DNA from: Terriglobia bacterium
Lineage (GTDB): Bacteria; Acidobacteriota; Terriglobia; Acidiferrales; UBA7541
Length of the DNA: 64,000 nt
NCBI GenBank assembly: GCA_020072785.1
Contig: JAIQGG010000002.1
Span: 310,001-374,000 of the forward strand
Direction: 5' to 3'
Shown here one piece after another: positions 6,830 to 59,084 of the stretch (its first letter is position 1; each line of letters starts with the position of its first letter). Below the pieces are notes generated by a model. It made no database searches. It was not told the DNA's origin and saw nothing but the letters and a program-made list of their open reading frames with translations. Both the position numbers and the translations under genes were made by a program.

Positions 6830-7798
6830 CTAGCCTTGCGGCGAGCGTTCCGCGGGGGAGGATCTCCCCGCGGAAGAGAGCGGATAGCCGCGCGCGCGCC
6901 AGGCGCCGAGCCCGCCCTGCAGCGGACGGATGCGCGCGATGCCCTGTTTCTTGAGGAGCAGCGCCACACGGGCGCTCGTGGCTTCGTTGGGTCAAGTACA
7001 GTAGAGGATGACCTCGCGGTCGCGCGGCAGCCGTTCGTTCCTCTCCTGCAGTTCCTGCGCGTCCATGTGCAGTGCGCCGGGAATCGTTTCTGGAGCGGCG
7101 TCGAAATCCAGGGCGTGGCGCAGGTCCACGATCACCATCTCTTCGCCGGCCTCGAGCTTTTCTTTCAATTCCTCGGGGGTGATCCGCGCAATGCGCAGCT
7201 CGCGGAGGAAGCGCTGCCGGGCAATGAATTTCCAGCCAATGTAGGCGGCCAGAGCGCCGGCCAGCAGAACAAGCAAGGCCCCGCCCAGCGAGAGTGCGCG
7301 CTCGGCAACGCTTTCCAGTTGTCCGCTGAAAGCATAACCCAGCCCCAGGAAGCTCCCGGCCCAGAATAGCGCGCCCGCCGCGTCGAAAAGCAGAAAGCGC
7401 GCCGGCTGCATGCCGAAAATCCCGGCCAGGGGCGGAGCCACGGTGCTCAATCCCGGGAGGAATTTGGCCACCAGCAGGGAGCGCGCGCCGTGCCGGGCGA
7501 AGACGCCTTCGGTCCGGCGGACGCAGGAATCGGGCTCGAGCGAAATGCGGCAGAGCCACTGCAGGACGCGATTCCCGCGGCGGCGGCCCAGTTCGTACCA
7601 GAGCACGTCGGCGAGGAGCGCCCCGCAAACCGCGGTGATCAGCGAGACTGCCAGACTCAAGCGCCCCGCTCCGGCCAGCGCGCCCGCCGCCAGCAGCAGC
7701 GGGATCGCCGGCAGCGGCAGGCCGAGCTGTTCGGCAAAGACCCAGACGAAGAGAACCAGCGAGCCGTGTTTCAGTAGAAATTCGAGCGGGCCGTGCAT
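6830..7798 (-). CDS. DedA-family membrane protein fused to a rhodanese domain, with an in-frame TGA (possible selenocysteine codon)
   Basis: The N-terminal ~200 residues are a DedA/VTT membrane domain (FAEQLGLPLPAIPLLLAAG, then a re-entrant ELGRRRGN...FLPGLSTVAPP motif). A rhodanese domain follows (VIVDLRHALDF...GALHM). Standard translation stops at TGA 6992-6994, codon 269, right after ILYCT. Beyond it the same frame runs 53 more codons to TAG 6830-6832 and encodes the rest of a normal rhodanese domain (PNEATSARVALLLKKQG, then LQGGLGAWRARGYPL). The TGA takes the second Cys position of a C-x-C-P-N-E motif. Selenocysteine insertion, a nonsense mutation or a sequencing error could each explain this. 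If read through, the product is 322 residues. Confidence 0.75.
6963..6982 (-). promoter_or_regulatory. SECIS-like hairpin just after the in-frame TGA
   Basis: On the minus strand a hairpin starts 9 nt after the TGA. GCCACG (6982-6977) pairs with TGTGGC (6968-6963), five Watson-Crick pairs plus a G-U, around the loop AGCGCCCG. Bacterial SECIS elements are short stem-loops a similar distance downstream of UGA, with a G in the first two loop positions; here loop position 2 is G. A six-pair stem in GC-rich DNA can occur by chance, so this supports but does not prove selenocysteine insertion. Confidence 0.35.
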
Positions 7799-7807
7799 GA
7801 AACGCGA

Positions 7808-8425
7808 TTACCCTTTCTTCCCGCTGGGAACGAGCGGGGAGATGTTTCCCCACGTGCCCGACATGACGAACTCGGAAAGGGGCTTGCGGCTCCGCGGCTC
7901 CAGTTCGCGCTGGCGCAGGTTTTCCGGCAGGGAAGCGGGGTCGCCAGCATAGCCGATGGCGATGGCGGCGACGGGTTCCCAGCCGTCCGGGATATGGAAC
8001 GTTGCGCGGGCTTTATCGGCGTCGAATCCGCCCATCTGGTGGATGAAAAGCCCGCGGGCGGTGGCTTCCAGGGCCAGGCTGGTGCTGGCCGCGCCCACGT
8101 CATGCAGGGCGTGACGGTTGGGCTTGCCGTTGTGGTGGAAGCTGGTGCGCGCGACGGAGAGCGCGAGGACCGGCGCCGCAGCGGCCCAGGCCTGGTTCCA
8201 CTCTATCAGGATGGAGAGCATGCGCTGGTATTCTTCCGGGTACTCTTTGGTGGCGACGAGATAGGCCCAGGGCTGGTCGTTGAAGCAGGAGAGCGCCCAC
8301 CGCGCCGCTTCGAACAGGCTGCAAAGCTCCGCGGCCGGGACGCGCTTGTCCGCGAAGGCCCGGGGGCTCCAGCGGCGCCGCAGCAGTTCGTGGATGGGGA
8401 AATCGTTCGTTGCCGGGTTTTCCAT
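7808..8425 (-). CDS. Nitroreductase-family FMN oxidoreductase
   Basis: 205 residues. The N-terminal RRRWSPRAFADKRVP is the FMN-phosphate binding arginine/serine motif of the family, and EAARWALSCFNDQPWAYLV is the helix that stacks on the flavin. The DVGAASTSLALEATARGL helix and EPVAAIAIGYAGDP near the C-terminus are also typical. It probably reduces quinones, nitro compounds or other electrophiles with NAD(P)H; the substrate is unknown. GGAAGG lies just before the ATG at 8425. A MarR regulator follows upstream on the same strand 62 bp away and may control it. Confidence 0.88.
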   Translation of the reverse strand: MENPATNDFPIHELLRRRWSPRAFADKRVPAAELCSLFEAARWALSCFNDQPWAYLVATKEYPEEYQRMLSILIEWNQAWAAAAPVLALSVARTSFHHNGKPNRHALHDVGAASTSLALEATARGLFIHQMGGFDADKARATFHIPDGWEPVAAIAIGYAGDPASLPENLRQRELEPRSRKPLSEFVMSGTWGNISPLVPSGKKG

Positions 8426-32427: not shown

Positions 32428-32504
32428 GGCGCGGTACCCAAGTGGCCCAAGGGAGAGGTCTGCAAAACCTCCATTCGTGGGTTCGAATCCCACCCGCGCC
32501 TCCA
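32428..32504 (+). tRNA. tRNA-Cys (anticodon GCA)
   Basis: Acceptor stem GGCGCGG pairs with CCGCGCC (32494-32500), discriminator T, and CCA encoded at 32502-32504. The anticodon arm GAGGT-CTGCAAA-ACCTC has GCA at positions 34-36. The T-arm GTGGG-TTCGAAT-CCCAC is perfect. The 3' 24 bp of this gene are repeated at 59061-59084 and form the attachment core of the island. Confidence 0.95.
32481..32504 (+). repeat. attL core (24-bp direct repeat in tRNA-Cys 3' end)
   Basis: It covers the T-loop, 3' T-stem, acceptor 3' strand, discriminator and CCA. It is identical to 59061-59084; the bases on both sides of the two copies differ, so the identity ends sharply. Insertion restores an intact tRNA at this end. 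Confidence 0.92.
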
Positions 32505-32525: not shown

Positions 32526-33686
32526 TCAGTTAAGGCGACGGTTTTTCCCGTGTACCCCGCGTGTACCCTGAGTTTCAAAAGCGATGACCGGGTCTCGGCG
32601 CCACGCATTGGTCAGATCCGCTTCTAATTGTTCCTGCCGCGAACGCACCCAAGGTGCGTAGTGCTTTTCCGTAATGCGGACGCTTTGATGCCCAAGCAAG
32701 ATCGAAACCCGCTCAATCGGCACACCAGCGAGCAATAGCTCAACGGCGAATGTATCTCGGAATCGATGCGGGTGAGCGCGTTCTACCTTTGCCAGTTCAA
32801 AGAGCTTAGATAACCTCTTCCTCCAACTACCAACAATTGTTTCCAGGTTCAGCGTACCGTCCCAAAAGAAGTGTTTCTCTGTGACTTTCGGGCTTGTGTC
32901 CAACGCTTTGAGCAAGAAGTCAGGGAGAATTGTGTTCACAGGGACACCGGTCTTCTGGGTGTATAGGAAGAGTTTGTTTCCTTCAATCCGGTCGCTCGTC
33001 AGGCTGACCGCGTCACCGATTCTCATGCCGCTGTAGCGAAGCAGCAAAACTAACGCGCGCATCCGCCGGGCGTTTTCCGAACCGCGTTCGGGGAATTCAT
33101 CCTTATATTTGTCGACGGCTGCCAGAATGCGCAGCATCTCTGTGCGAGTATATGGCATCGTGGGGCAGAGAGTGATTTTCGGAGCTTTCAAATCGGTGGC
33201 CGGATTCTCTGGCATCCACTTCCGCTTCTGGGCGAACCGAAAGAATGCCCGGAGACGTTCGAGTTTCTTCGCGCTTGAACGCGGGCCGTCTTTCCACCCC
33301 GAACGAAACTGGCTCACTGAGGGTAAGTCGAATTCGTCCAGAAAATGCAACCCGTGCCCCTGCCCATACGTTTCCATTTGCCGTTTTAGCAATTTGTACT
33401 TTCGGACCGTAGACTGGTGTAGTTTTCGAGCTTCTACATCAGCAAGAAATTCTTTCCATGCATCCTCCACGCTCTTTCGTTCGGGCCGCGATGTGCGGCG
33501 GTCTTCGGCCTCCCATTCACGAATCATTTCTTGGGCACGCTGCCAGTCGCGGAGCTTCAAGGACTCGCGCATATCTTTCCCGGCGAGTACGCCATCAACC
33601 CAAATGGGACACTGGCAGTGTCGGTGTTTCCGGCCTTTCGCTCGTTGTTTGCAGTTCTTTCGATGACGGCGATAAATCGTCAGCAT
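32526..33686 (-). CDS. Tyrosine recombinase (integrase of the island)
   Basis: 386 residues from ATG 33686 (MLTIYRRHRKNCKQ), preceded by GGAAAGAAG. An N-terminal Cys/His-bearing segment (C-x6-...HRHCQC) and SAM-like core-binding domain (about 70-170) lead to the catalytic domain. That domain has Arg in RYSGMRIGDAVSL, HPHRFRDTF (H-x-x-R), LGHQS and the nucleophile Tyr in TEKHYAPW. It catalyses integration and excision at tRNA-Cys. The 3' end of the gene contains the left GTGTACC pair. It ends 22 bp from attL. Confidence 0.93.
   Translation of the reverse strand: MLTIYRRHRKNCKQRAKGRKHRHCQCPIWVDGVLAGKDMRESLKLRDWQRAQEMIREWEAEDRRTSRPERKSVEDAWKEFLADVEARKLHQSTVRKYKLLKRQMETYGQGHGLHFLDEFDLPSVSQFRSGWKDGPRSSAKKLERLRAFFRFAQKRKWMPENPATDLKAPKITLCPTMPYTRTEMLRILAAVDKYKDEFPERGSENARRMRALVLLLRYSGMRIGDAVSLTSDRIEGNKLFLYTQKTGVPVNTILPDFLLKALDTSPKVTEKHFFWDGTLNLETIVGSWRKRLSKLFELAKVERAHPHRFRDTFAVELLLAGVPIERVSILLGHQSVRITEKHYAPWVRSRQEQLEADLTNAWRRDPVIAFETQGTRGVHGKNRRLN
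32550..32567 (+). repeat. Left GTGTACC direct-repeat pair (candidate arm-type integrase site)
   Basis: GTGTACC at 32550-32556 and 32561-32567, an 11-bp period, one helical turn. The same pair with the same period is found at 58961-58978 near the other end. Confidence 0.5.
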
Positions 33687-33696
33687 TTCTTCTTTC

Positions 33697-34071
33697 CTAC
33701 CTTGCTGCACCTTTCAAGGATAGGCGCATGTATACTCGCTCCACAACCGTCTGCGGAATTCGCAACGTACGATATCGTCTCTTCCCTCGAGGACTTCTCT
33801 CCCCAATCACAAGCACACCAGGCTCGCTGTCGAAAAGGTCACGGATTTTATCAGCGCTCAGGTTCCACATTTCGGCGAGTTCCGTAACGGCGTAATGCCG
33901 CTCGGCATGCGCCGTATGGTCGGGTTGTGTTGAGACTGGCATCTCTGGTTCCGGGCTCCTTGTATTCGCTGGATAGTCCAACCTCAGCGGATCGTTCCTT
34001 GTCCGCTTGTATGAATAGCCTGCGCTAGAACAATTTGTCTGGCTCATGACCTCCAGGTCGTTTTGCTCCAT
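33697..34071 (-). CDS. Excisionase/HTH-17-like small DNA-binding protein
   Basis: 124 residues. The N-terminal ~55 residues are polar and unstructured-looking. From about residue 58 (HYAVTELAEMWNLSADKIRDLFDSEPGVLVIGE) there is a MerR/excisionase-type winged helix, followed by a basic RGKRRYRTLRIPQTVVERV wing region. Located 10 bp upstream of the integrase start and co-directional, it is the likely recombination directionality factor. ATG at 34071; MSQTN at 34047 is an alternative start. Confidence 0.6.
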   Translation of the reverse strand: MEQNDLEVMSQTNCSSAGYSYKRTRNDPLRLDYPANTRSPEPEMPVSTQPDHTAHAERHYAVTELAEMWNLSADKIRDLFDSEPGVLVIGERSPRGKRRYRTLRIPQTVVERVYMRLSLKGAAR

Positions 34072-38098: not shown

Positions 38099-38194
38099 AT
38101 GGACAAAAATGCGAGAGAAGCAAAGATCGATGATGACACGTGCCGCTCGCTGGCACATAATTCAGGCTGCTTGGAGGAGAATATAAATGGATGA
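38099..38194 (+). CDS. 31-codon leader ORF coupled to the Ubl gene
   Basis: ATG 38099 with GAGG 4-5 bp upstream; the product starts MDKNAREAKIDDDTCRSLAH and ends EENING. Its stop TGA (38192-38194) lies inside the first codons of the Ubl gene (ATG 38187), and the Shine-Dalgarno of the Ubl gene lies within this ORF. This is a typical arrangement for translational coupling or attenuation. Function unknown. Confidence 0.35.
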   Translation: MDKNAREAKIDDDTCRSLAHNSGCLEENING

Positions 38195-38438
38195 ACCGAA
38201 AAAAGAGCGAACATATCACTATTTTGTTGATGGAGTGAAATACGAAACGCAAATGTCTTCGATCACGGGAGCCGAGATCAAGGCCAAGATTCCAAACTTT
38301 AATCCAAGTTACAGCCTATATTTGGAAGGGCAAGGGGGCGAACCGGATAAGCTAATTACCGACACCGATTCTGTCCCACTCGAACACGGCCCCAATCGTT
38401 TCCATACTGTTCCTCCAGCCTCCTTCGGCAGAAAATGA
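38187..38438 (+). CDS. Ubiquitin-like modifier (Multi_ubiq-type beta-grasp domain)
   Basis: 83 residues. The sequence TYHYFVDGVKYETQMSSITGAEIKAKIPNFNPSYSLYLEGQGGEPDKLITDTDSVPLEHGPNRFHTVPPASFG has the pattern of prokaryotic multi-ubiquitin domains: FxVDGxxYxT, (S/T)GxEIKA, xxYxLYLEG, Vx(L)EHGxNRFxTVPPAxFG. Only one domain is present. The C-terminus is FGRK, a single Gly followed by two residues, not Gly-Gly, so trimming by the JAB or DUF6527 partner may be needed. GGAGGAG precedes the ATG. First gene of a five-gene operon. Confidence 0.82.
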   Translation: MDEPKKERTYHYFVDGVKYETQMSSITGAEIKAKIPNFNPSYSLYLEGQGGEPDKLITDTDSVPLEHGPNRFHTVPPASFGRK

Positions 38439-38818
38439 GTATTCTGGAAACGCAACTTGCAGATCTCAAGGCACAACCTGGCTGTGCCGATGCAGAGGTC
38501 CAGTTAGTGCCCGATGGTTCTGCCATCATAACGATCCCCAATGTCACGCTCCCGACTGGATGGTCTAAATCTGCTACGACAATCCGATTCGTGGCTCCAG
38601 TTGGATACCCACATGCAAAGCCCGACTGTTTTTGGGCAGACACTGACCTTCGATTGCAGAGTAATGCGATGCCACAAGCTACAAACATCACACCTATACC
38701 TGGAACAGACTTGAGCAACTTGTGGTTTTCGTGGCACACGATGCATTGGGATCCCAATCGAGATAGCTTGACGACGTACCTCAATGTTGTGCGACAAAGA
38801 TTTAAGGAGCCAAAGTGA
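38435..38818 (+). CDS. E2-like protein (Prok-E2 family E type)
   Basis: 127 residues, overlapping the Ubl gene by ATGA. It fits the prokaryotic E2_E pattern: ITIPNVTLPTGWSKSATTIRFVAPVGYPHAKPDCFWADTDL, then LWFSWHTMHWDPNRDSLTTYLNVVRQRF. Only Cys17 and Cys65 (in KPDCFW) are present; neither sits at a position I can confirm as the catalytic Cys of classical E2s. The conserved WH...W-x-P-x-x-D-S-L-x-T-Y-L block is intact. It would receive the modifier from the E1 or present targets. Confidence 0.75.
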   Translation: MSILETQLADLKAQPGCADAEVQLVPDGSAIITIPNVTLPTGWSKSATTIRFVAPVGYPHAKPDCFWADTDLRLQSNAMPQATNITPIPGTDLSNLWFSWHTMHWDPNRDSLTTYLNVVRQRFKEPK

Positions 38819-40152
38819 ACGATACAGTTGTATTCCCCGGCGCGACATTTCAGCGCCTTCGAAGCCAACTGCTTGCAAGCGATCGTGAAACGTGTGCGGT
38901 GCTTCTTGCTCTGCCTTTGCAGGTTGGGAGAGGCACAAAATTTATAGTCAAAGAGGAGATTTACTTTGGAGAAGGCGATTACGTTGAAAGGTCGGGCTTA
39001 AGATCTTCCCTGCGATCAGAAACTGTCTTTACCATAGCGCAAAAGGCAAAGAGGCAAAATCAATCTGTCGTTTTCGTTCACACCCATCCGGGTGTCCACG
39101 GTTTTCCGCAATTCTCAACAGCTGATGATAAAGGGGAAGCTGTCCTAGCTCCGTTCCTTAAACAATACTTTCAGACCGAGTTGGCCCTCAGTTTGATCCT
39201 CGCTGCAGGCGGCTGCGCTGGAAGGATTATCCCTTGCGGAGCACCTTTGCGAATCGTTGAAGCAAGTAGTGAGTTCACTTTTCTTTCTAAACTTGACGCA
39301 GAGGAATCAGAATTCGAGCGCAGTGATCGTCATATTAGAGCCCTCGGCAGATCTGCCGTACCGATCCTCCAAAATCTAAAAATCGGAATCGTTGGACTGG
39401 GAGGCACGGGTTCACTAACCGCCCAGCAGCTTGCTTATTTGGGAGTTCGTGATTTTGTCCTGATGGATGACGACGTGATTGAATTGACAAATCTCAATCG
39501 TGTTGTGGGCGCAAGTCAGACCGATGTGAATCGACCGAAGACGAAAGTTACTGAAGATCTCATCAGGCGGATAGCCCCTGCTGCAAGGGTGCGCATTTAT
39601 GATGAGAGTGTTCTTGAAGATGTCTCGGTCCGAAAATTGTTGGACCGCGATCTCTTATTCTGCTGTACCGACTCTCACGGTAGTCGTGCCGTTATGAATC
39701 AGTTTGCTTATCAGTATGTCATCCCATGCATCGATATGGCGATCAGCATCTCGACTACGGATGAAAAGATCTCATATATAGTCGGGCGGATTCAATTGCT
39801 TGCTCCTGGTCTTGGATGTCTGACCTGCGGTGGACTTTTGGACGCGGGAGAGGTTCGCGTAGACTTGATGAGAGAGCATGAGCGGCGGCGGGACCCCTAC
39901 TTCCTTGGTCAAGCTGAACCTCAACCGGCCGTGATCTCCTTGAATTCAACCGTGTCATCACTTGCTGTAACTATGTTTCTAGGCACGATCACCCATGCGC
40001 CCTTGAATGCCCGATTCCAGCACTATGACGCCATCGCCGGAATTGTCAGAAGTGTTGAGCATCGTCCAAGACCGAATTGTATTGTTTGCTCCGAATCAGG
40101 CGCACTAGCTAGGGGAGACACCTGGCCGCTGCCGACCCGGAAGTCGCCATGA
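38815..40152 (+). CDS. JAB peptidase-E1 fusion (Ubl-activating enzyme with deconjugase domain)
   Basis: 445 residues, GTG start overlapping the E2 gene by 4 bp with AAGGAG upstream. Residues 1 to ~165 are a JAB/MPN-type domain with Glu25, HTH (89-91) and SxxD (101-104), the JAMM metal set with slightly longer spacing. From ~185 comes a ThiF/E1 adenylation domain with GIVGLGGTGS (191-200), DDDVIELTNLNRV and RPKTKV. Zinc CxxC pairs are at 335/338 and 422/425. It would adenylate the Ubl C-terminus and also cleave or mature it. Confidence 0.85.
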   Translation: MNDTVVFPGATFQRLRSQLLASDRETCAVLLALPLQVGRGTKFIVKEEIYFGEGDYVERSGLRSSLRSETVFTIAQKAKRQNQSVVFVHTHPGVHGFPQFSTADDKGEAVLAPFLKQYFQTELALSLILAAGGCAGRIIPCGAPLRIVEASSEFTFLSKLDAEESEFERSDRHIRALGRSAVPILQNLKIGIVGLGGTGSLTAQQLAYLGVRDFVLMDDDVIELTNLNRVVGASQTDVNRPKTKVTEDLIRRIAPAARVRIYDESVLEDVSVRKLLDRDLLFCCTDSHGSRAVMNQFAYQYVIPCIDMAISISTTDEKISYIVGRIQLLAPGLGCLTCGGLLDAGEVRVDLMREHERRRDPYFLGQAEPQPAVISLNSTVSSLAVTMFLGTITHAPLNARFQHYDAIAGIVRSVEHRPRPNCIVCSESGALARGDTWPLPTRKSP

Positions 40153-41684
40153 ACGACCACGCACCTCGCCTTATAGTTCTCTGGTCCGGAGCGCCGCCGT
40201 CTGATGTAATCGAGACTGAATTTCAGCGAAGAGGACTTGAACTAAGGATTGTTTCCAATGCGAACGAGGTTCGGGCGCATCTCCCTCTTTCGCGTGCCTT
40301 AGTATTTTGTGTTCCCACACTTAACCAGCAAGGTGTCACCGCCATTCTGCTTGCGTGCGCGGAATCAGTAGTTGTACACGGATTGGATCTGTGGATCCTC
40401 CCTGAAGACGAGGCTGTAGGAAAAAAAGTGCAGGAAGAAATGTACACTGCCTTTAAGAGATTTTTTAGTGGCAGAGAAGTGAGTCTACAATTTCGGCTCG
40501 CTCCGCACTTCGAGGAGCTCAAAGCTGCTCCCCATTTAATTCCTGAAGCTTGCGCACGCTACAGGCCAGGGCCACGCCCAAAAGCCGACTTGAAGCTGAG
40601 TCCGAAACCAACAGTAATTACTCGAAAGTACGGTCCAACCCTCGCGGAACTCTTGAGACGCTCGTTTAATGATTGCGTCCAGATTGAGCTTGAAGAACTG
40701 AGTGGCGGATATTCAGCCAAAGTTTTCAAAGTGCACGCAAGCTTTGAGCAACGCCGACTTGTTAACAGGCCCCTACCGTTCTATGCCAAGTACGATCTTC
40801 TCTTCAAAATCAATCAGGAACTACAGAACTATGAAGACCTGGTTGAAGCGGCTGTGCCTTTCAATCTGCGACCAAATCTGGACCCCAGTCGATGCATTCG
40901 GCGAGGTTACACCCATGGCTTAATCGTGGGCAATTTTGTTGAATACTCAGAGCCTCTTTGGGAAGCTGCTCGGAGGGGTCATGGCGCTGGCCCTATATAT
41001 TCGCTTTTTGATCAAGCGTTCAAGAGTTGGCGACTTAACTCTCAGCGAGAAACCCATCAGTCTATATTCCAAGATTTGGACGCAGCCAATATTCGCATCG
41101 AAGTCGATCGGATTGATGAGAGGAGAATTGAACATGTCAAAGCATTGGGAGCCAAGACAACTCCGAATGAGCTCTTGTCAGTCCTCAAGCGACTTCCGGC
41201 TCTTCCTCATCGCAAGGGTGTTATTCACGGCGATCTTCACGTCGGCAATGTTCGGGCCCGCGGAAACGATGCCGTGCTCATTGATTTCTACTCAGTGAAC
41301 AGCGGAGCACCGCTAGCTTTTGACCCTGCAACTCTTGAAGTGAGCTTGGCATTTGCAAAATATGAGAATGGCGACGTCGATTCTGACTGGAAAGACACGA
41401 TAGCTAGGCTCTATGATCCTTCCACTTTCCTTAAACCCCCTGAGCCCGCGCTGCAACAGCATAAGCGTGAATGGTTGTGGAATTGCGTGAGGCAGCTGCG
41501 AACGATTGCCCTGTCTCGGGAAGAACCCGATGGCACTCGTGAATATCAAACTGCGATCACCTTCGTTCTACTCCGCAGGATGATATACCCTTCCGATAAG
41601 CGCTATCCCGAATCCAGATTCGCAGTTGGATATCTGATCGCGGAGAGTCTACTTCTGAACCTCGCAAGTGAAGCGGGTATATGA
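40149..41684 (+). CDS. APH/TCAD-like protein kinase in the Ubl operon
   Basis: 511 residues, ATGA overlap with the E1 gene. The C-terminal two thirds look like an aminoglycoside-phosphotransferase-type kinase: lysine-bearing RPLPFYAKYDLLFK, catalytic loop HGDLHVGNVR (about 360-369) and metal motif LIDFYS (Asp near 379). The N-terminal ~130 residues (LIVLWSGAPPSDVIETEFQRRG...) form a separate alpha/beta, receiver- or TIR-like, domain of unknown role. The region from KYGPTLAELLRRSF resembles kinase-like domains of ternary conflict systems (TCAD9); this is from memory. It could phosphorylate the Ubl, the E2 or a target. Confidence 0.65.
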   Translation: MNDHAPRLIVLWSGAPPSDVIETEFQRRGLELRIVSNANEVRAHLPLSRALVFCVPTLNQQGVTAILLACAESVVVHGLDLWILPEDEAVGKKVQEEMYTAFKRFFSGREVSLQFRLAPHFEELKAAPHLIPEACARYRPGPRPKADLKLSPKPTVITRKYGPTLAELLRRSFNDCVQIELEELSGGYSAKVFKVHASFEQRRLVNRPLPFYAKYDLLFKINQELQNYEDLVEAAVPFNLRPNLDPSRCIRRGYTHGLIVGNFVEYSEPLWEAARRGHGAGPIYSLFDQAFKSWRLNSQRETHQSIFQDLDAANIRIEVDRIDERRIEHVKALGAKTTPNELLSVLKRLPALPHRKGVIHGDLHVGNVRARGNDAVLIDFYSVNSGAPLAFDPATLEVSLAFAKYENGDVDSDWKDTIARLYDPSTFLKPPEPALQQHKREWLWNCVRQLRTIALSREEPDGTREYQTAITFVLLRRMIYPSDKRYPESRFAVGYLIAESLLLNLASEAGI

Positions 41685-42220
41685 ACATGAGGGCGAATGC
41701 GGTCAGGTTTAAGGGCTTCGTCGCTGATCGAATTGAAGCCGGTGCGGTACTAAAGAAACCGGGCGACCTTGCCGTCATCAGTAGGGAGAAAATGCCTCGT
41801 TGGATCGTATTACGTTGTCCGAGCGGATGTGGTGATGATGTTCTGTTGAATCTGGATCGCAGAACCGGACGAGCCTGGTCTCTTTATAGAGAGTCTGGCA
41901 AGCGGGTCTCGATATACCCTTCAATCTGGAGGGATACGGGGTGTGGGAGCCATTTTATCGTCTGGAAGAATCGTGTTATCTGGTGCGACTATGATGAAGC
42001 ACTCCTGGATGTCGGCGAGGCAATTGATGCTGACAAGTCTGCCTCCGTTCTAAAAATCATCGGCGAAAGTCAAACGTATATTTCTTATGAGGAAATCGCG
42101 ACACGTCTCAACGCGATTCCATGGGAGATTCTCACGCTTTGTCATCGTTTGGTTCGCGAAGGTCTAATCGAAGAAGGGCGCATTAAAGAGCGAGGGAGAT
42201 TTAAGCTCGTTGACAGATAG
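41681..42220 (+). CDS. DUF6527-like putative peptidase of the Ubl operon
   Basis: 179 residues, ATGA overlap with the kinase gene. The middle contains GDLAVISREKMPRWIVLRCPSGCGDDVLLNL...SLYRESGKRVSIYPSIWRDTGCGSHFIVWKNRVIWC, with the CP-S-GCG and CGSHF-x-(VI)-x-x-x-x-(IV)-x-WC motifs of DUF6527, a family found with bacterial ubiquitin-like operons. The C-terminal ~60 residues (ISYEEIATRLNAIPWEILTLCHRLVREGLIEEGRI) look like a winged helix. A zinc-dependent peptidase that matures the Ubl is a plausible role. Confidence 0.7.
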   Translation: MNMRANAVRFKGFVADRIEAGAVLKKPGDLAVISREKMPRWIVLRCPSGCGDDVLLNLDRRTGRAWSLYRESGKRVSIYPSIWRDTGCGSHFIVWKNRVIWCDYDEALLDVGEAIDADKSASVLKIIGESQTYISYEEIATRLNAIPWEILTLCHRLVREGLIEEGRIKERGRFKLVDR

Positions 42221-42408
42221 GGCATGATGACGAGTCTGGGTTAGTGGCAATATCCCGTCGCGCTTGGCTGTCGGACTGCTATTGACCTGCTCATCCGTAA
42301 GATTGGCCGTTCTTGAATCCCTGTTCTACTCTGACGTTTAACTTATTGAATCCGCTCACGGAATAGCCGTGATTTTCCATGTTCGGAATACAGTATTTTT
42401 TGAATCGT

Positions 42409-42951
42409 CTAACCTTTGCGAAAATAGGCTTCTACCCAGAACTCAAGGGTCTTGTCGTGCCAATCGAGGGAGCCTGTTAGGGCTGGCCGTAGTTCCATTG
42501 CGTACCGCTCCCGCAAAACCTCTTGGTCGAGATGCAGTGTCTTCGCCAGATACTCAACATCCTCCCGGTCTCGCGGTCCATTCCGGCTTATCTTTGAGAG
42601 AACCAAATCGTAAGGGTCGAGAACGAAGAGCCGCATGTTTTTGAAGCGTTCGGGGAATAGCTCTTTCATCCGCTCTTCGTAGCTCTCTGGTACGGATGCG
42701 ACCGCCGCATGTTGCACATGGACCTTATACTTTCGCGCCAAGGGTGAACCTTCCCCTGCTATCTCTTGTAAATCACGTGCGCGATTGTAGGGAACGAGGG
42801 AAAAATAATCCAAGTCATTTGTGCTTCGCGGCAGTCCGTAGGCAGCGACAATCGCAAATCCGCCGATGCAGTGAAACTCGAAAGGCTCACTGAGGAGGCC
42901 GTCAAGTTCTTCTAGAAACATGGCCCACGGTGAAGGAAGGTCAGACGGCAT
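42409..42951 (-). CDS. DUF6036-type nucleotidyltransferase-like protein (toxin candidate)
   Basis: 180 residues. EFHCIGGFAIVAAYGLPRSTNDLDYFSLVP has the GG-x(n)-TxDLDY nucleotidyltransferase motif with two acidic residues. LDPYDLVLSKISRNGPRDREDVEYLAKTLHLD matches the C-terminal K(I/L)xR...RDxxDV region of AbiEii/DUF6036 proteins. It overlaps the XRE gene by 11 bp; the pair resembles a toxin-antitoxin module in which the NTase modifies tRNA or protein. Confidence 0.75.
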   Translation of the reverse strand: MPSDLPSPWAMFLEELDGLLSEPFEFHCIGGFAIVAAYGLPRSTNDLDYFSLVPYNRARDLQEIAGEGSPLARKYKVHVQHAAVASVPESYEERMKELFPERFKNMRLFVLDPYDLVLSKISRNGPRDREDVEYLAKTLHLDQEVLRERYAMELRPALTGSLDWHDKTLEFWVEAYFRKG

Positions 42952-43600
42952 AGCGCAACATATCGGGCCGCAGATCGCTCAGAAGATTCCATTGCCGTGC
43001 TTCTTCTGAGCTATGCTCTCGAAGCCAGCGGCGCTCTGGTTCGTTGAGTTCCTTGCAGAAGGAATCTTCCCTTTCGAGTTTGCTCTCGGCAAGTGCTTTT
43101 TCAGGTTCTCGAAGAACGTCGTTCCCGCTTGCCAGTCTTGTCAGAGTCACAGTGAATCCTAGGCGATTTTGCAGGTTTCTCATTCGAGCCTGTGGAACTA
43201 GCCAGTCAAAGTCCATGTCTGGATAGCGAGAAACGAGCCAGGGGAGACCTTCGACAACGCGGGCCTCAAGATTACGTTGGGCCAAAGCCGCCAGCAAAAA
43301 CTCAACCGGGTTCACTTTCCTTGTTCCTCGGCGAAAATGTGCGAAACCAGGGTATCCCAGGGAAGCAAGCTCGAAAGCCAAGAAATCAGGAGTCACGTTC
43401 TTAGGAACCTCAGAAACAGAGAGTACCGTAGGCGGCAGCCCGTATACGTGCATCAGTTTTCGAGCAAGCTCAGGAGAAGGATTTCTCTCACCTCTCTCCA
43501 GCATCGAAAGATAGGCTTGGGTCACACCCAGACGGTCAGCGGCCTGCTGTTGGTTGTAGCCAAGCTGTAGTCTAGCCTGTTTTAGTTGTTCTGAACTCAT
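42941..43600 (-). CDS. XRE-family regulator (antitoxin candidate)
   Basis: 219 residues. An N-terminal HTH (QLKQARLQLGYNQQQAADRLGVTQAYLSMLERGERNPSPELARKLMHVYG) is followed by a ~150-residue helical domain unique to this type. ATG at 43600 lies only 6 nt from the -10 box, so its mRNA is likely leaderless. The operator (43608-43628) overlaps the promoter, which predicts autorepression. Partner of the NTase gene downstream. Confidence 0.85.
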   Translation of the reverse strand: MSSEQLKQARLQLGYNQQQAADRLGVTQAYLSMLERGERNPSPELARKLMHVYGLPPTVLSVSEVPKNVTPDFLAFELASLGYPGFAHFRRGTRKVNPVEFLLAALAQRNLEARVVEGLPWLVSRYPDMDFDWLVPQARMRNLQNRLGFTVTLTRLASGNDVLREPEKALAESKLEREDSFCKELNEPERRWLREHSSEEARQWNLLSDLRPDMLRYAV

Positions 43601-44967: not shown

Positions 44968-45927
44968 ATGACAAACTTCGGTGAACTTCATACATGCGAG
45001 CAGATAGAGGCGATGACTGCGGTGGGGTCGGCGGTAAGCCCGCCGCAATACAGCAACAAATCAGACCCATTCAGTGTTAGTCGGGACGGCAATTTTATCG
45101 GCCAAGACGGCTTCATTGTTCCTAAGAACTTCGGCGAGTTTTACGCGAAGTATCCCAAGTACGTCCGCCGCTGGGCAATCAAGCGCCTCGGGCGGGTGGG
45201 GTATACCGATGCCATCCGGGACCTTGAACAGGATATGCTTGTTTTCCTGTTCTCCTTACCGAAGACATCCAAGTTTCGCGAACCGAGTGAACAGCATCCC
45301 CACGGCTGCACGGACGTAATCCAGTGTTTCAATCCCTGGCGTCAGTATGGCGCAAGCGAACGCCGCTGGCGCTGTTGGCTGAATCTGTGCCTCAGTAATC
45401 GCGCCTCTACGATCTATCAGCGCCAAAAGAAAGACGCGCTGAGCCGAAAGAACAACATGCCATTTGACGTTGATTCGGAAGGTGTGACCGTTGACGAGGA
45501 ATATCTCCATAGTCATTCGGAAACTCTGCGGCGCAAGAGCGCAGAGCAATCTTCCGCCGTCGAGAAGCGTCTCTTGGCGAACCAATTCATAGATTTTGTG
45601 TTGGAAAAAGAGCCGCGTCTTTATGGCACCGTGCTCGCCATCTCGGAGACCCGAACACTCCGTGATGCCCAGGAGCTTTTGCGAGTGGACGAAACGGCAC
45701 TCACCCGCGACCTAACACGAATCATTCAGTTGAAGGACGCTTTTATAGACGGTGGTCCGATTCCAAAGCAGCGCAAGCCTTACAGGAAACGCGGCAAAGT
45801 TCACGCATCCTCCACTCCTTCTACCATTCGCAGTACAACGATCACTGCGGGACGGAGATTGGTACGACCAAGGCGTGAACTGACTCGCCGAGGCGACGAG
45901 CGCGTACCAGGACGGGCAGATCGGTGA
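44968..45927 (+). CDS. Sigma-factor-like hypothetical protein
   Basis: 319 residues. NFGEFYAKYPKYVRRWAIKRLGRVGYTDAIRDLEQDMLVFLFSLP resembles a sigma region 2-like helix pair. A C-terminal stretch (SAVEKRLLANQFIDFVLEKEPRLYGTVLAISETRTLRDAQELLRVDETALTRDLTRIIQL) looks like a region 4-type HTH. The last ~60 residues are basic and overlap the convergent CapP gene by 86 bp, so the true end may have been extended by rearrangement. Identification is weak. Confidence 0.45.
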   Translation: MTNFGELHTCEQIEAMTAVGSAVSPPQYSNKSDPFSVSRDGNFIGQDGFIVPKNFGEFYAKYPKYVRRWAIKRLGRVGYTDAIRDLEQDMLVFLFSLPKTSKFREPSEQHPHGCTDVIQCFNPWRQYGASERRWRCWLNLCLSNRASTIYQRQKKDALSRKNNMPFDVDSEGVTVDEEYLHSHSETLRRKSAEQSSAVEKRLLANQFIDFVLEKEPRLYGTVLAISETRTLRDAQELLRVDETALTRDLTRIIQLKDAFIDGGPIPKQRKPYRKRGKVHASSTPSTIRSTTITAGRRLVRPRRELTRRGDERVPGRADR

Positions 45928-46879
45928 GTTGAGTTCCGTCGCTGGCCTTCCACCAGTTGAGATTTTCCTGTGCCTCGCCGCGCCGAGAGTCCGCCGAAAA
46001 GACTTTCGAGATGATCGATGCTTCTGGTACCCGGAAATTACGAAACATCTGCATTCCTTGAAGCCGAGCAGCTTCGTTGATTGTTACGTTGACGGCGCGC
46101 AGAGTTGGGGTCGGAGCTGTCGTAAATCCGAACGCTGTCTGCGCCGGGTTGCCATCTCCCTTCTTATATGCCAGCGCTGCCTCCATGAGGATGCATGGTC
46201 TGGGCCACGCCTTCGCAATTCCGATAATTGCCGAGGTCAGGCTACCGTCAGGACACAGTTCGTCTCGGATCGCTTCGATGACTTCGAAAGAAATCTCTCC
46301 AAGCGCAAACGGCTTGACCATTGGGGCGTAGTAGGCGAACTCGCCAGCTAAGACATCCACGAGTGACTCCTCGGGACTCTTGTATTCATGCAGCGTGTGT
46401 GTCCGCTTGAAGGCGAAACGACGTTGGTCCGTAAGAATCAACAGATGGCCCAGTTCGTGCCACTTTGTGAAATAAACTCTGGATGCTTTCGCGCCGCGAC
46501 AATCTATGATTGAGACATACGGCAAATCAAACCGCCCCGGATTCACGAGCTTCAAGGTGATGCCGAAGACTTCGTCTGTTAGCTCCTGAGGGAGTGTGGC
46601 AAAGGCTAATTCCCCCTTATCAGCGTATTCCCTCACGACTTGCTCCAAATCAGCATCCGATCGAATTTCGACAAATATCGTGCCGAGCTTATTCGCGACC
46701 AGCGAAAGCAGGTCGGAAGGCCTTGAACAATTTTCTAGGTCAGTGAGAAATCGTTTCACCTTGCGGTGACAAAGAGCAACAATGTCCCCGACGGGATTTG
46801 TGGTCAGATGAAGACCCAAATCCGAAGCGAGCACATGAATCGAAGTGCTGTCGTTTAGTTTTATTCCTGACCGTGTCAT
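45842..46879 (-). CDS. capP: ImmA/IrrE-type zinc metallopeptidase (CapP-like CBASS regulator)
   Basis: 345 residues. The zinc motif is HELGH (141-145) in YFTKWHELGHLLIL, with a downstream acidic region (SPEESLVDVLAGEFAYYAP) that supplies the third ligand, E-x-x-x-x-x-A-x-EFA as in ImmA/IrrE. The C-terminal ~120 residues probably sense a signal. It is co-transcribed with the XRE gene (ATGA overlap) and faces away from the CBASS operon. In described CapH/CapP pairs the peptidase cuts the repressor when DNA is damaged; assignment here is by architecture and position. Confidence 0.78.
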   Translation of the reverse strand: MTRSGIKLNDSTSIHVLASDLGLHLTTNPVGDIVALCHRKVKRFLTDLENCSRPSDLLSLVANKLGTIFVEIRSDADLEQVVREYADKGELAFATLPQELTDEVFGITLKLVNPGRFDLPYVSIIDCRGAKASRVYFTKWHELGHLLILTDQRRFAFKRTHTLHEYKSPEESLVDVLAGEFAYYAPMVKPFALGEISFEVIEAIRDELCPDGSLTSAIIGIAKAWPRPCILMEAALAYKKGDGNPAQTAFGFTTAPTPTLRAVNVTINEAARLQGMQMFRNFRVPEASIISKVFSADSRRGEAQENLNWWKASDGTQLTDLPVLVRARRLGESVHALVVPISVPQ

Positions 46880-47286
46880 CCGAACACTTTCTTTATTGCC
46901 CTGTAGAGTTCAATCCAATCCTTGACCTCGAAAGGTTTAATCGTTTTGTTACTGCGACGTGCAATCACTGAGCGATGCGCTTCTAACAATTCCACGGTAT
47001 CAGAGTATGAAAGACTCAATTGTTCCGCAGCGGACGCGAGCGCTTGCGGGATCACGGTCGGTTCCCTCTGTGAGGCGGGAAGTGGCTCGTCCCCTCGCAA
47101 CAAATAATCAATCGAAGCTCCGAGCGCGTTCGCGATCTTCAGAACATATTCCGAACTCGGATTTCGCTTGTTATTCTCTATATCGCTGAGGAAGCCCTTA
47201 CTGACGCCACTCTTGGTCGCCAGTTGATCCTGGGTCCACTTCTTCGCCTCCCTTATCTCCTTAACGCGGTCTCCAACAGTCGGCAT
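46876..47286 (-). CDS. capH: XRE-family repressor (CapH-like)
   Basis: 136 residues from ATG 47286, with GGGGGG-AAG upstream; an in-frame extension to 47601 lacks support. HTH: VKEIREAKKWTQDQLATKSGVSKGFLSDIENNKRNPSSEYVLKIANALGASIDYLL. A C-terminal helical part (SAAEQLSLSYSDTVELLEAHRSVIARRSNK...WIELYRAIKKVFG) probably holds the dimerisation and cleavage region. It sits between capP and the divergent CD-NTase gene, placed to repress both. Confidence 0.8.
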   Translation of the reverse strand: MPTVGDRVKEIREAKKWTQDQLATKSGVSKGFLSDIENNKRNPSSEYVLKIANALGASIDYLLRGDEPLPASQREPTVIPQALASAAEQLSLSYSDTVELLEAHRSVIARRSNKTIKPFEVKDWIELYRAIKKVFG

Positions 47287-47309
47287 TCTGCTTCCCCCCA
47301 GATTGTTGG

Positions 47310-47338
47310 ATTTTAGCGAGCTGGCGTGACCTTGTAAA
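47310..47338 (-). promoter_or_regulatory. capH-capP promoter
   Basis: On the minus strand: TTTACA (47338-47333), 17-bp spacer, TAAAAT (47315-47310), 24 bp upstream of the capH ATG. Confidence 0.65.
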
Positions 47339-47355
47339 GGCGATTCCGCCTCTTC

Positions 47356-47384
47356 TTGACATGGGGTTCGATGTTCGCTATACT
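47356..47384 (+). promoter_or_regulatory. CBASS operon promoter
   Basis: TTGACA (47356-47361), 17-bp spacer, TATACT (47379-47384): near-consensus. Its -35 is 18 bp from the -35 of the divergent capH promoter, so a repressor bound between them could silence both. Confidence 0.75.
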
Positions 47385-47425
47385 GTATGTGAATTACACT
47401 ATCGGCGATGTTGCGGAGGGCCGGA

Positions 47426-48577
47426 ATGGCGACAGCGAAACTGGGAATTTGGGATAGCAGGTTTGGGCAAATGAACGATTTGCTGCGGAGCATCTGCGAG
47501 GAACTCCAAGTCAGCCCAACGGCATACGACCAAGCCGTGAACCGATACACCGCCGTCTGCAACTGGTTAGAAGCCGACGGGAGCGCTGTAGCTGTTTTCA
47601 ACCCGACGATCTATCCGCAAGGGTCAATGAAAATTGGGACGACAGTGAAGCCATTCGGTCGGGACGAGTATGACTTAGATCTCGTCTGCGAGTTCCGAAT
47701 CTCGGTGGATAAACTTCAGTCACCGCTCCAACTCCTGAAGCTCCTTGAGGCGCGGATGCGCGAGCACGAACTCTATCGCTCCATCCTGGAAATGAAAAAC
47801 CGCTGTGTACGGCTGAATTACGCTAACGAGTTCCATCTGGACATCCTTCCCGCCTGCCCCGACCTCAGCGTCGGTGGTACCTGTCTCTTCGTTCCTGACC
47901 GGAAATCGCAGACTTGGAAGCCTTCGAATCCCAAAGGTTACGCCGATTGGTTCGAATCGCGCTGTGAGTTGGCGCTGAAGATGCTGATTGAAAGCCGGAG
48001 ATTGATGACAAAAGCTGAACCAATTCCCCCGCAAGAAGCAACGGAAGAGAAGGCAATCCTCAAGAGAGTGGTCCAGTTATTGAAGCGGTGGCGCGATGTC
48101 CGCTACCAGCGGGAACCAAAACTCGCCCCGATTTCGATGGTGCTCACGACTATGGCTGCCCAAGCATACGGAGGAGAGCGCACAGTTACAGAGGCGATGA
48201 CTTCGGTGCTGAACAGTTTCGTCACCCAAATCGCCTCAACCAATTCCCGCGTGTATGTCCTAAATCCCGCCAACCGCAAGGAGGACCTTAGTGAGCGTTG
48301 GGGCGATGCAGCCCAATACCGTGTATTCGTTGATGGGATTCGAGAATTCCACGAGCAATGGGACCGTGTGTTGGCAACCAGTGGGATACACAACGTTTCC
48401 GAACAACTCGAAGGGTTTTTTGGGGAACCTGTGAAGGCCGCAATCAAAAAGCAAGCCCGGACTTTGCAGGACTTGCGCGAGAAATCGTCCTTGAGGGTAG
48501 CGCAGGCCGGATTGTTAAGCTCAGCCCCTGCGATTGGAGTTCCTGTGAGGTCAAACACATTTCATGGCAAATGGTAA
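47426..48577 (+). CDS. CD-NTase (cyclic oligonucleotide synthase) of a CBASS system
   Basis: 383 residues from ATG 47426, with GGAGGG upstream; 47408 is an alternative start. Nucleotidyltransferase motif GS (66-67) in YPQGSMKIGTTVKPF, then EYDLDLV with Asp83/Asp85, and the third carboxylate Asp139 in FHLDILP. A helical OAS-like C-terminal domain follows. The C-terminus NTFHGKW may be the site acted on by the E2-like partner. It would make a cyclic di- or trinucleotide on infection, which activates the CapV effector. Confidence 0.9.
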   Translation: MATAKLGIWDSRFGQMNDLLRSICEELQVSPTAYDQAVNRYTAVCNWLEADGSAVAVFNPTIYPQGSMKIGTTVKPFGRDEYDLDLVCEFRISVDKLQSPLQLLKLLEARMREHELYRSILEMKNRCVRLNYANEFHLDILPACPDLSVGGTCLFVPDRKSQTWKPSNPKGYADWFESRCELALKMLIESRRLMTKAEPIPPQEATEEKAILKRVVQLLKRWRDVRYQREPKLAPISMVLTTMAAQAYGGERTVTEAMTSVLNSFVTQIASTNSRVYVLNPANRKEDLSERWGDAAQYRVFVDGIREFHEQWDRVLATSGIHNVSEQLEGFFGEPVKAAIKKQARTLQDLREKSSLRVAQAGLLSSAPAIGVPVRSNTFHGKW

Positions 48578-49007
48578 AAGTAGTCTCCGTCAACGCGCAC
48601 CCAGTTTCGATCAGCAAATCTACAGAATGGGTGTGTTGTGGCCGAAGTTTGTTTTGGACAAGACAAGGAGACAGGTCGAAGCAGTCTGGAAAGGATTTCT
48701 GCAACCCTCGCCCCTGAGCGAGAATTATTTGATCACCCTTCGCTTCCGCCCTGGTCGGAATCCAGAAACACGCGTGTTATCACCAGAACTGAAAATTCGA
48801 GACAGATTCCGCGATCTACCCCATATCAACCCAGACGGCAGCCTATGCCTTCACGTGATGGGAGATTGGCAGCCCTGGATGTACGTCGCAGATTTCATCC
48901 CTCCATGGGTCAGTACGTGGCTCTACTTCTATGAAGTCTGGTACGCCACAGGTAACTGGCATGGGGGCGGGACCCATCCGGACAAACCGGAGCATCGGAG
49001 TGAGTGA
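48564..49007 (+). CDS. Stand-alone E2-like protein of short type II CBASS
   Basis: 147 residues, overlapping the CD-NTase gene by 14 bp. A UBC-like core with Cys95 in NPDGSLCLHV, the probable catalytic cysteine, followed by WMYVADFIPPWVSTWLYFYEVWYATGNWHGGGTHP, a signature seen in CBASS E2 proteins. No E1 or JAB partner is encoded in this operon, so it is the short form in which E2 alone primes the CD-NTase. Possible cross-use of the JAB-E1 protein 8 kb upstream is speculative. Confidence 0.82.
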   Translation: MANGKSSLRQRAPSFDQQIYRMGVLWPKFVLDKTRRQVEAVWKGFLQPSPLSENYLITLRFRPGRNPETRVLSPELKIRDRFRDLPHINPDGSLCLHVMGDWQPWMYVADFIPPWVSTWLYFYEVWYATGNWHGGGTHPDKPEHRSE

Positions 49008-49076
49008 TGCCAAGCATGGAGAGGGGCGAACCGTACGTGGGACATCACTCGTCAGGAAGGAGAAGGTGACACAGAC

Positions 49077-50045
49077 ATGACAAGGCGAGTGCTCTGTATT
49101 GATGGCGGTGGTATCAAGGGGGTATTCCCCGCATCCTTCCTCTCCACGATTGAGGAATCAGTGGGAAAGCCAGTAGCAGATTACTTTGACCTGATTGTGG
49201 GAACGTCAACGGGCGGAATAATTGCCCTGGGTCTCGGACTTGGATTGAGTGCGAATGATCTGCTGCGCTTTTATCAAGAACGCGGCCCCGCAATCTTCAA
49301 TGGAAACGGGGAAGTTCGGTGGCTTCGTCAGTGGTTCCGAGCAAAATACAATCCCGAACCATTGAGACAATCTTTGTCTGAGGCGTTCGGCTCCCGGCGA
49401 TTGGGGGATAGTCGTAAGCGTCTTGTCATCCCCTCATTTAACGTTGAGACTGGCGAAGTTCATGTTTGGAAAACAGCCCATCACCCCCGTTTGGAACGAG
49501 ATTACCTTCACTCCGCCGTTGAGGTTGCCCTTTCAACGGGTGCTGCCCCTACCTACTTTCCAACGTACAAAGCTCTATCTGGCACACCGTTGATTGATGG
49601 TGGGGTGTGGGCGAACAACCCGGTTGCGATTGCGGCGGTTGAGGCCATCGGGGTACTCGGCTGGCAAGCGTTTGAACTGCGGATTCTTAGCCTTGGTTGT
49701 ACAACCACCCCTTTCAGCATTGACTGGGGGCGTAGGCACTCTCTCGGTGTGTTCGGCTGGGCGACAAAAGTCACGGACCTCTTCATGACGGCGCAATCCG
49801 TTTCGGCAACCGGGATGACGCAACATCTACTTCCCGACCCCAACAATCTTGTGAGAATTAGTCCCATGGTCGGCAAGAACCGCTTTGAGCTTGATCGTGT
49901 TCGGGAGATTCCTTCGCTCAAAGGCTTGGGCGATTTTGAGGCCCGCAAAGCTCTTCCTCAACTTCGCCCTATGTTTTTCACTGCCCCCGTGGGGGAAGAT
50001 TTCGTTCCATACCACGTGGTAAGTGAACAAAAGGAGGCAAGATGA
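49077..50045 (+). CDS. capV: Patatin-like phospholipase effector (CapV-like)
   Basis: 322 residues. Oxyanion loop DGGGIKG (9-15), nucleophile Ser44 in GTSTG and catalytic Asp174 in DGG, the Ser/Asp dyad of patatins. The effector hydrolyses inner-membrane phospholipids when it binds the cyclic nucleotide, leading to abortive infection. Third gene of the CBASS operon, with a 69-bp gap upstream. Confidence 0.9.
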   Translation: MTRRVLCIDGGGIKGVFPASFLSTIEESVGKPVADYFDLIVGTSTGGIIALGLGLGLSANDLLRFYQERGPAIFNGNGEVRWLRQWFRAKYNPEPLRQSLSEAFGSRRLGDSRKRLVIPSFNVETGEVHVWKTAHHPRLERDYLHSAVEVALSTGAAPTYFPTYKALSGTPLIDGGVWANNPVAIAAVEAIGVLGWQAFELRILSLGCTTTPFSIDWGRRHSLGVFGWATKVTDLFMTAQSVSATGMTQHLLPDPNNLVRISPMVGKNRFELDRVREIPSLKGLGDFEARKALPQLRPMFFTAPVGEDFVPYHVVSEQKEAR

Positions 50046-59060: not shown

Positions 59061-59084
59061 GTTCGAATCCCACCCGCGCCTCCA
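59061..59084 (+). repeat. attR core (24-bp tRNA-Cys 3' repeat)
   Basis: Identical to 32481-32504. It lacks the rest of a tRNA and so is the remnant of the original chromosomal 3' end. Confidence 0.92.

Follow-up and report, generated by a model that had tools for sequence, protein, structure and literature searches.

A recurring clade of bacterial Bub-type ubiquitin-like conjugation operons carrying a predicted APH/TCAD9-family kinase

A five-gene operon that combines a predicted ubiquitin-like conjugation system with a kinase was analysed in a 64,000-nucleotide stretch of a Terriglobia bacterium genome (GenBank assembly GCA_020072785.1, contig JAIQGG010000002.1, positions 310,001–374,000 of the forward strand; hereafter the window, whose own numbering is used for its coordinates). 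Bub itself is known; what appears to be new here is a distinct, recurring clade of Bub operons that carry a kinase. The operon occupies 38187–42220 on the forward strand and consists of five open reading frames (ORFs) with four junctions, each of which is a 4-bp overlap (ATGA, GTGA, ATGA and ATGA in order):

38187–38438, forward strand: ubiquitin-like protein (Ubl), BubA-like, a single multi-ubiquitin beta-grasp domain (83 amino acids; C-terminus ...PPASFG-RK)
38435–38818, forward strand: E2-like protein, BubB-like, Prok-E2_E (127 amino acids)
38815–40152, forward strand: JAB-E1 fusion, BubCD-like (445 amino acids)
40149–41684, forward strand: kinase, APH/TCAD9-type (511 amino acids)
41681–42220, forward strand: DUF6527 zinc protein with a C-terminal winged helix (179 amino acids; a further in-frame ATG at 41687)

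A sequence-only reading of the window had proposed the same five genes and four overlaps; its ORFs and junctions proved exact and its domain calls hold. Pfam matches above the cut-off were obtained for Prok-E2_E (8.6e-11), ThiF (5.4e-33) and DUF6527 (PF20137; 1.3e-16), and the kinase matched both TCAD9 (7.2e-11) and APH (5.8e-8) above the cut-off. The matches of the Ubl to Multi_ubiq (1.4e-4) and of the JAB-E1 fusion to Prok-JAB (6.2e-4) fell slightly under it, and these two assignments were held because the profiles match solved Bub proteins and the JAMM motif is intact. The E1 family profile matched the solved Citrobacter BubCD (9ea4) at 5.5e-57, far better than MoeB, ThiF, UBA or Cap2; the E2 profile matched Citrobacter BubB (9eae_C) at 6.7e-8, and the Ubl family profile matched solved multi-ubiquitin proteins (9d59) at 1.2e-8. 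These matches to solved proteins bear out the earlier suggestion of a Bub-type system. Bil (BilABCD) and type II cyclic-oligonucleotide-based antiphage signalling systems (CBASS; Cap2/Cap3) likewise combine bacterial Ubl activation, conjugation and JAB-mediated removal. However, the E1 of the operon is far closer to BubCD than to Cap2-type E1-E2 models or the BilD model (1.5e-7), its JAB domain is fused to it rather than encoded separately, and the E2 lacks the canonical cysteine; the BilD comparison and the JAB-E1 fusion ruled out membership of Bil.

As described by Iyer et al. (2006, PMC1779556), type 6e operons encode between one and three Ubl domains, an inactive E2/RWD-like protein that lacks the Cys, a JAB-E1 fusion, and a zinc protein with CxxxC and a second metal pair written HxxC; in the passages of text and table found there, a kinase is not among the components named. 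Four of the five genes are identified here as a Bub operon and hence as Iyer type 6e, the equation of Bub with type 6e being our own and based on the protein matches. The operon resembles described Bub systems in that its Ubl, E2 and JAB-E1 strongly match solved Bub proteins, its DUF6527 protein fits the described CxxxC zinc protein, and it is mobile and associated with defence genes. It differs from them in an additional gene, for an APH/TCAD9 kinase, that lies between those for E1 and DUF6527, and its E1 belongs to a separate clade. No description of such a subset was found in the literature searched, which did not extend to the main Bub papers.

The sequence-only reading had regarded the kinase as unplaceable, which no longer applies, since it can now be assigned to the TCAD9/APH family; a defective active site, which that reading had named as an observation against it, was not found. 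Thirteen loci share an invariant set of catalytic residues, namely the beta3 Lys K214, the alphaC Glu E224, the motif H360-G-D362-L-H-x-x-N367 and the metal-binding Asp D379; G187 of the Gly loop is present in 12 of the 13. The structural model (pLDDT 77.6, pTM 0.74) comprises an N-terminal alpha/beta domain (residues ~9–105) and an APH/choline-kinase fold (~160–508), and the catalytic domain matched 1nd4 (APH(3')-IIa) in Foldseek at 1.1e-6 and gave a VIA Z of 14.7 (root-mean-square deviation, rmsd, 3.9 over 260 residues). The ratio of nonsynonymous to synonymous substitution rates (dN/dS) between the Bradyrhizobium loci L011 and L012 was 0.08 for the kinase and also 0.08 for E1, with dS near saturation. 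The kinase is best described as a predicted intact APH/TCAD9-family enzyme that marks one Bub clade. It is a single-copy gene in the host genome. The N-terminal domain has a (beta-alpha)4 order in the model, no solved relative of it was found by sequence, and hhalign against receiver domains gave a probability of 0.1%. PADLOC 2023 contained no model matching the kinase (best 0.062), no relatives were detected in the viral and phage collections searched, and in the relevant literature TCAD9 appeared only in the legend of a CRISPR survey.

The nearest non-Bub relatives examined were receiver-TCAD9 kinases, each encoded by the last of three adjoining genes, after those for an SMC/AAA ATPase and a histidine kinase. 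They belong to the same catalytic family, with TCAD9 and APH above the cut-off (L024, L026 and L028), whereas the Bub kinase has no receiver recognisable by sequence and no histidine kinase or ATPase partner, and is accompanied by Ubl conjugation instead. The three-gene sets lie at L024 4718–8945, L026 4365–8597 and L028 4197–8405; they were read in Donghicola and Agrobacterium, and Hyphomonas has the same gene sizes and order, with only the kinase read there. In its own right, the set of SMC/AAA ATPase, histidine kinase and receiver-TCAD9 kinase has the appearance of a sensor-kinase conflict system not described before.

The same kinase-bearing module was found in about 15 distinct loci from at least three phyla, with near-identical Bradyrhizobium copies counted once. 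Kinase-based searches recovered the order Ubl-E2-E1-kinase-DUF6527 on plasmids of Mesorhizobium, Rhizobium, Bradyrhizobium and Deinococcus, in one more genome from the window's phylum, and in genomes of Rhizobium, Novosphingobium, Sphingomonas, Bradyrhizobium, Aurantimonadaceae and Burkholderia. Two further Pseudomonadota genomes also carried the module. Most junctions overlap or lie within ~11 bp, and one of the loci (L021) has a kinase that is frameshifted in a metagenome assembly. Locus L129 (2936–7491) has the order Ubl-E2-E1-DUF6527-second Ubl-kinase, which indicates that the kinase stays even when gene order changes. The earlier idea that the five genes form one co-expressed unit is supported by the overlapping junctions and by these tight junctions elsewhere; the same gene order, which it had proposed to look for in other genomes, does recur, and the kinase is not missing from all related operons. 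In the Deinococcus locus L014, a sixth gene with hydrophobic segments (7408–8157) overlaps the short DUF6527 gene by 4 bp and is possibly a membrane partner.

A tree of 27 E1s (13 kinase-bearing rows and 14 kinase-less rows) separated all 13 kinase-bearing E1s from the others at a branch supported at 100/99 and present in 100% of bootstrap trees. Because the kinase-bearing set had mostly been collected through the kinase itself, kinase-blind screens were added. An E2 profile screen matched 6 of 398 Pseudomonadota genomes: three strong matches (G399, G785 and G512) all had the kinase, and three weak ones (G741, G770 and G720) had no kinase match. Among the best 13 records of an E1 search of plasmids (at least 39.9% identity), 12 carried the kinase, the exception being the Roseomonas locus L065, which is damaged by an insertion sequence (IS); among the matches listed under 34%, none belongs to the 14 kinase records. 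Ochrobactrum L066 is an incomplete member of the clade, with a truncated E1 and no kinase. Distances of the kinase and E1 were strongly correlated (Mantel r 0.90; 0 of 2000 permutations as high). At the level of sequence, every intact operon of one E1 clade in these comparisons has the kinase and none outside the clade does; the kinase is very probably an obligate part of this Bub subtype. Kinase-less Bub is common; it was found on plasmids of Paracoccus, Pseudanabaena, Rhizobium, Enterobacter, Acinetobacter, Nostoc and Bradyrhizobium and in genomes of the window's phylum. In a further group (L079–L081, L083, L084, L092 and L093), DUF6527 adjoins E1-like proteins, mostly of ~395 amino acids, in which the ThiF part alone matches; these probably represent the type 6e variant with "domain X instead of JAB".

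This pattern bears on two explanations that would separate the kinase from conjugation. The first, a pseudo-enzyme or random insertion in this one genome, could appeal to degraded copies elsewhere (remnants L013 and L015, and the IS-damaged L065), but was rejected given the recurrence in ~15 distinct loci, the nesting in one E1 clade, the invariant catalytic residues and the low dN/dS; we consider it refuted and its probability negligible. The second would make the kinase a passenger: an effector, or a detoxifier, acting on small molecules, carried and co-regulated with Bub and having no biochemical contact with conjugation. Such a role would agree with the closest structures to the model, which are choline, aminoglycoside, methylthioribose and fructosamine kinases, and with the kinase profile, which matched maltokinase and methylthioribose kinase among PDB sequences. 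Nevertheless, strict nesting in one E1 clade and co-evolution with both E1 and E2 (r 0.90) would be unusual for a passenger, and the translational coupling in nearly all loci and the retention of the kinase through a gene-order change also speak against it, making this explanation unlikely.

The conjugation components of the kinase-bearing operons have features of their own. In the Ubl, F80-G81 is invariant in seven loci, and in all kinase-bearing loci FG lies at or near the terminus: some Ubls end exactly in FG, others extend 1–4 residues beyond, and one second Ubl extends further. Stand-alone Ubls of kinase-less Bub end in PG or otherwise. The E2 motif is PDCFW...WFSWH in kinase-bearing operons and DMFY...WQRWSRH in kinase-less Bub, with RWSRHRSW of BubB aligning with WFSWH..W of this E2. 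The E2-like protein has no Cys at the canonical UBC position, and the S-x-H of S99-x-H101 is invariant in 31 of 31 Bub E2s compared. Cys65, within PDCFW, is specific to the kinase-bearing clade and is not found in BubB. It was set aside as the canonical catalytic Cys because Met occupies this position in BubB and all kinase-less Bub E2s and a manual alignment with UBC enzymes puts Cys65 in the core strand that follows YPxxPP; it may still act in a non-canonical way.

The JAB-E1 fusion contains JAMM residues E25/H89/H91/S101/D104, adenylation residues G194..R229, K242 and D286, and zinc cysteines C335/C338/C422/C425. Across 27 Bub E1s, H89, H91, S101 and D104 of the JAMM motif and R229, K242 and D286 of the adenylation site are invariant. 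No candidate catalytic Cys is invariant in these E1s; C284 is present in 26 of 27. An E1 thioester is doubtful because C284, the only near-invariant Cys, belongs to the common CTD motif of ThiF/MoeB-type E1s. From the lack of a canonical Cys in the E2 together with its invariant S-x-H, we infer that Ubl transfer would bypass a canonical cysteine thioester, possibly via Ser99.

In the DUF6527 protein, the ligands C46xxxC50...C88xxH91 are invariant, the second pair lying ~37 residues after the first. The residues after the second pair number 84–112 in most kinase-bearing operons and 11–21 in kinase-less ones, the short-tailed exceptions among the former being Deinococcus (46) and the divergent L130 (11). 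This tail (~120–176) was modelled as a winged helix (pLDDT 77–95), and its best Foldseek matches were mostly winged helix-turn-helix (HTH) domains (rmsd ~1.1–2.3 over ~57 residues), at a moderate E of ~0.02. The zinc half had no solved relative by sequence search and was of low confidence in the model, with no trusted fold. No paper naming the DUF6527 family was found in the literature searched.

In a further explanation, the kinase would phosphorylate the Ubl, the E2, the E1 or DUF6527 and thereby switch on conjugation or target choice, as a bacterial counterpart of phospho-ubiquitin signalling. In its favour, the Ubl tail, E2 core and DUF6527 tail all differ between kinase-bearing and kinase-less operons, as if adapted to a kinase. 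The stand-alone second Ubl gene that L129 has immediately in front of its kinase gene fits this possibility, as does the absence of the kinase from most Bub systems, since regulators can be missing. On the other hand, clade divergence alone could account for these differences, and no Ser, Thr or Tyr of the Ubl was both invariant in kinase-bearing operons and missing from kinase-less ones in small sets compared by eye. Regulation of the machinery by the kinase is considered a minority possibility.

The explanation we favour, tentatively and with a little less than even confidence, is a kinase-bearing Bub subtype that is cargo of an integrated defence island and whose kinase is an output under the control of conjugation. 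In this scheme, the JAB domain would trim the Ubl tail to ...FG and take conjugates off, and E1 would adenylate the FG end and, together with the E2-like protein, transfer the Ubl by a route that avoids a canonical cysteine thioester. DUF6527 might help select the target, with its added winged helix anchoring it to DNA, RNA or a partner. The kinase would be the output enzyme, with Ubl attachment to the kinase or a partner and JAB-mediated removal forming an on/off switch, by analogy with type II CBASS, where Cap2/Cap3 conjugation primes the cyclase. Once activated, the kinase could phosphorylate a target, blocking phage growth or the infected cell. The kinase was favoured as the output mainly because its nearest non-Bub TCAD9 relatives serve as outputs of sensor systems. 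What the sequences show is coupling of the kinase to conjugation; the direction of control, from conjugation to kinase, is somewhat more doubtful than the scheme as a whole.

Several considerations weigh against this scheme. APH folds act on small molecules as often as on proteins. The kinase has no site that would identify it as a target of conjugation, and its N-terminal domain shows no sequence match to receiver domains. As most Bub operons lack the kinase, they must have another target, and the kinase could equally regulate the conjugation machinery. Moreover, a 2026 study (EMBO J, PMC13373217) states that no phage protection by Bub operons has been demonstrated. The same study counted 544 Bub operons and described the upstream regulators CapW, CapH with CapP, and CapK with CapS. 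CapK and CapS share with the present operon the association of a kinase with Bub; however, CapK is an HTH-STAS-GHKL kinase that lies upstream of Bub/CBASS operons and acts on transcription, whereas the kinase described here has an APH fold and lies inside the operon. No CapS-like gene was recognised adjoining this operon.

The defence-island setting proposed by the sequence-only reading was borne out, and the evidence for the antiviral role that it suggested is of this contextual kind. The island is bounded by tRNA-Cys (32428–32504) and a 24-bp, att-like direct repeat of the tRNA 3' end (59061–59084), with a tyrosine integrase (32526–33710, reverse strand) beside the tRNA and a drop in guanine-cytosine content from ~0.65 to 0.49. 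Its cargo (32428–59084) includes the kinase-bearing Bub operon, a CBASS with a CapP-like regulator and a type I restriction-modification (RM) system. Other features of the region are as follows:

38133–38161, forward strand: weak promoter-like element ATGACA-17-CATAAT, 25 nt upstream of the Ubl start
42356–42372, forward strand: weak terminator-like stem-loop, with TTTT after it, downstream of the operon (count not above chance)
47408–48577: CBASS CD-NTase
49077–50045: CBASS patatin effector

Seven promoter-like sites were seen in the region against 4.3 expected, and the one at 38133–38161 is not significant alone. Within 45842–50045, the CD-NTase and patatin CBASS genes are divergent from a pair encoding an HTH protein and a CapP-like metallopeptidase. 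Directly after the operon, on the reverse strand (42409–43600), a DUF6036 nucleotidyltransferase gene (2.2e-17) overlaps an HTH gene, likely an AbiE-like toxin-antitoxin pair. In Bradyrhizobium L011, kinase-bearing Bub also lies beside CBASS, and on a Nostoc plasmid (L071, 2557–8720) a kinase-less Bub stands directly before a nucleotidyltransferase gene and a SAVED-domain gene; Bub and CBASS can travel together. The CBASS cyclase, RM and regulators of this island were rejected as general companions of the kinase, a patatin like that of the window being found in only two near-identical Bradyrhizobium loci of the 16 kinase-bearing ones.

Bacterial counterparts of the ubiquitin system have come to light recently, and few of them are understood; the kinase-bearing clade offers a fresh handle on Bub function. 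With a kinase as its very probably obligate fifth part, and with the Ubl tail, the E2 and the zinc protein altered in step, it provides a compact, testable case of phosphorylation and Ubl conjugation within one operon. It is possible, if less than probable, that the kinase and the Ubl cascade regulate each other, with the Ubl, a conjugate or the kinase carrying both modifications; this would be a bacterial form of cross-talk for phage defence that works with an E2 lacking a catalytic cysteine. One bacterial pathway appears to combine two target modifications previously expected to meet mainly in complex cells.

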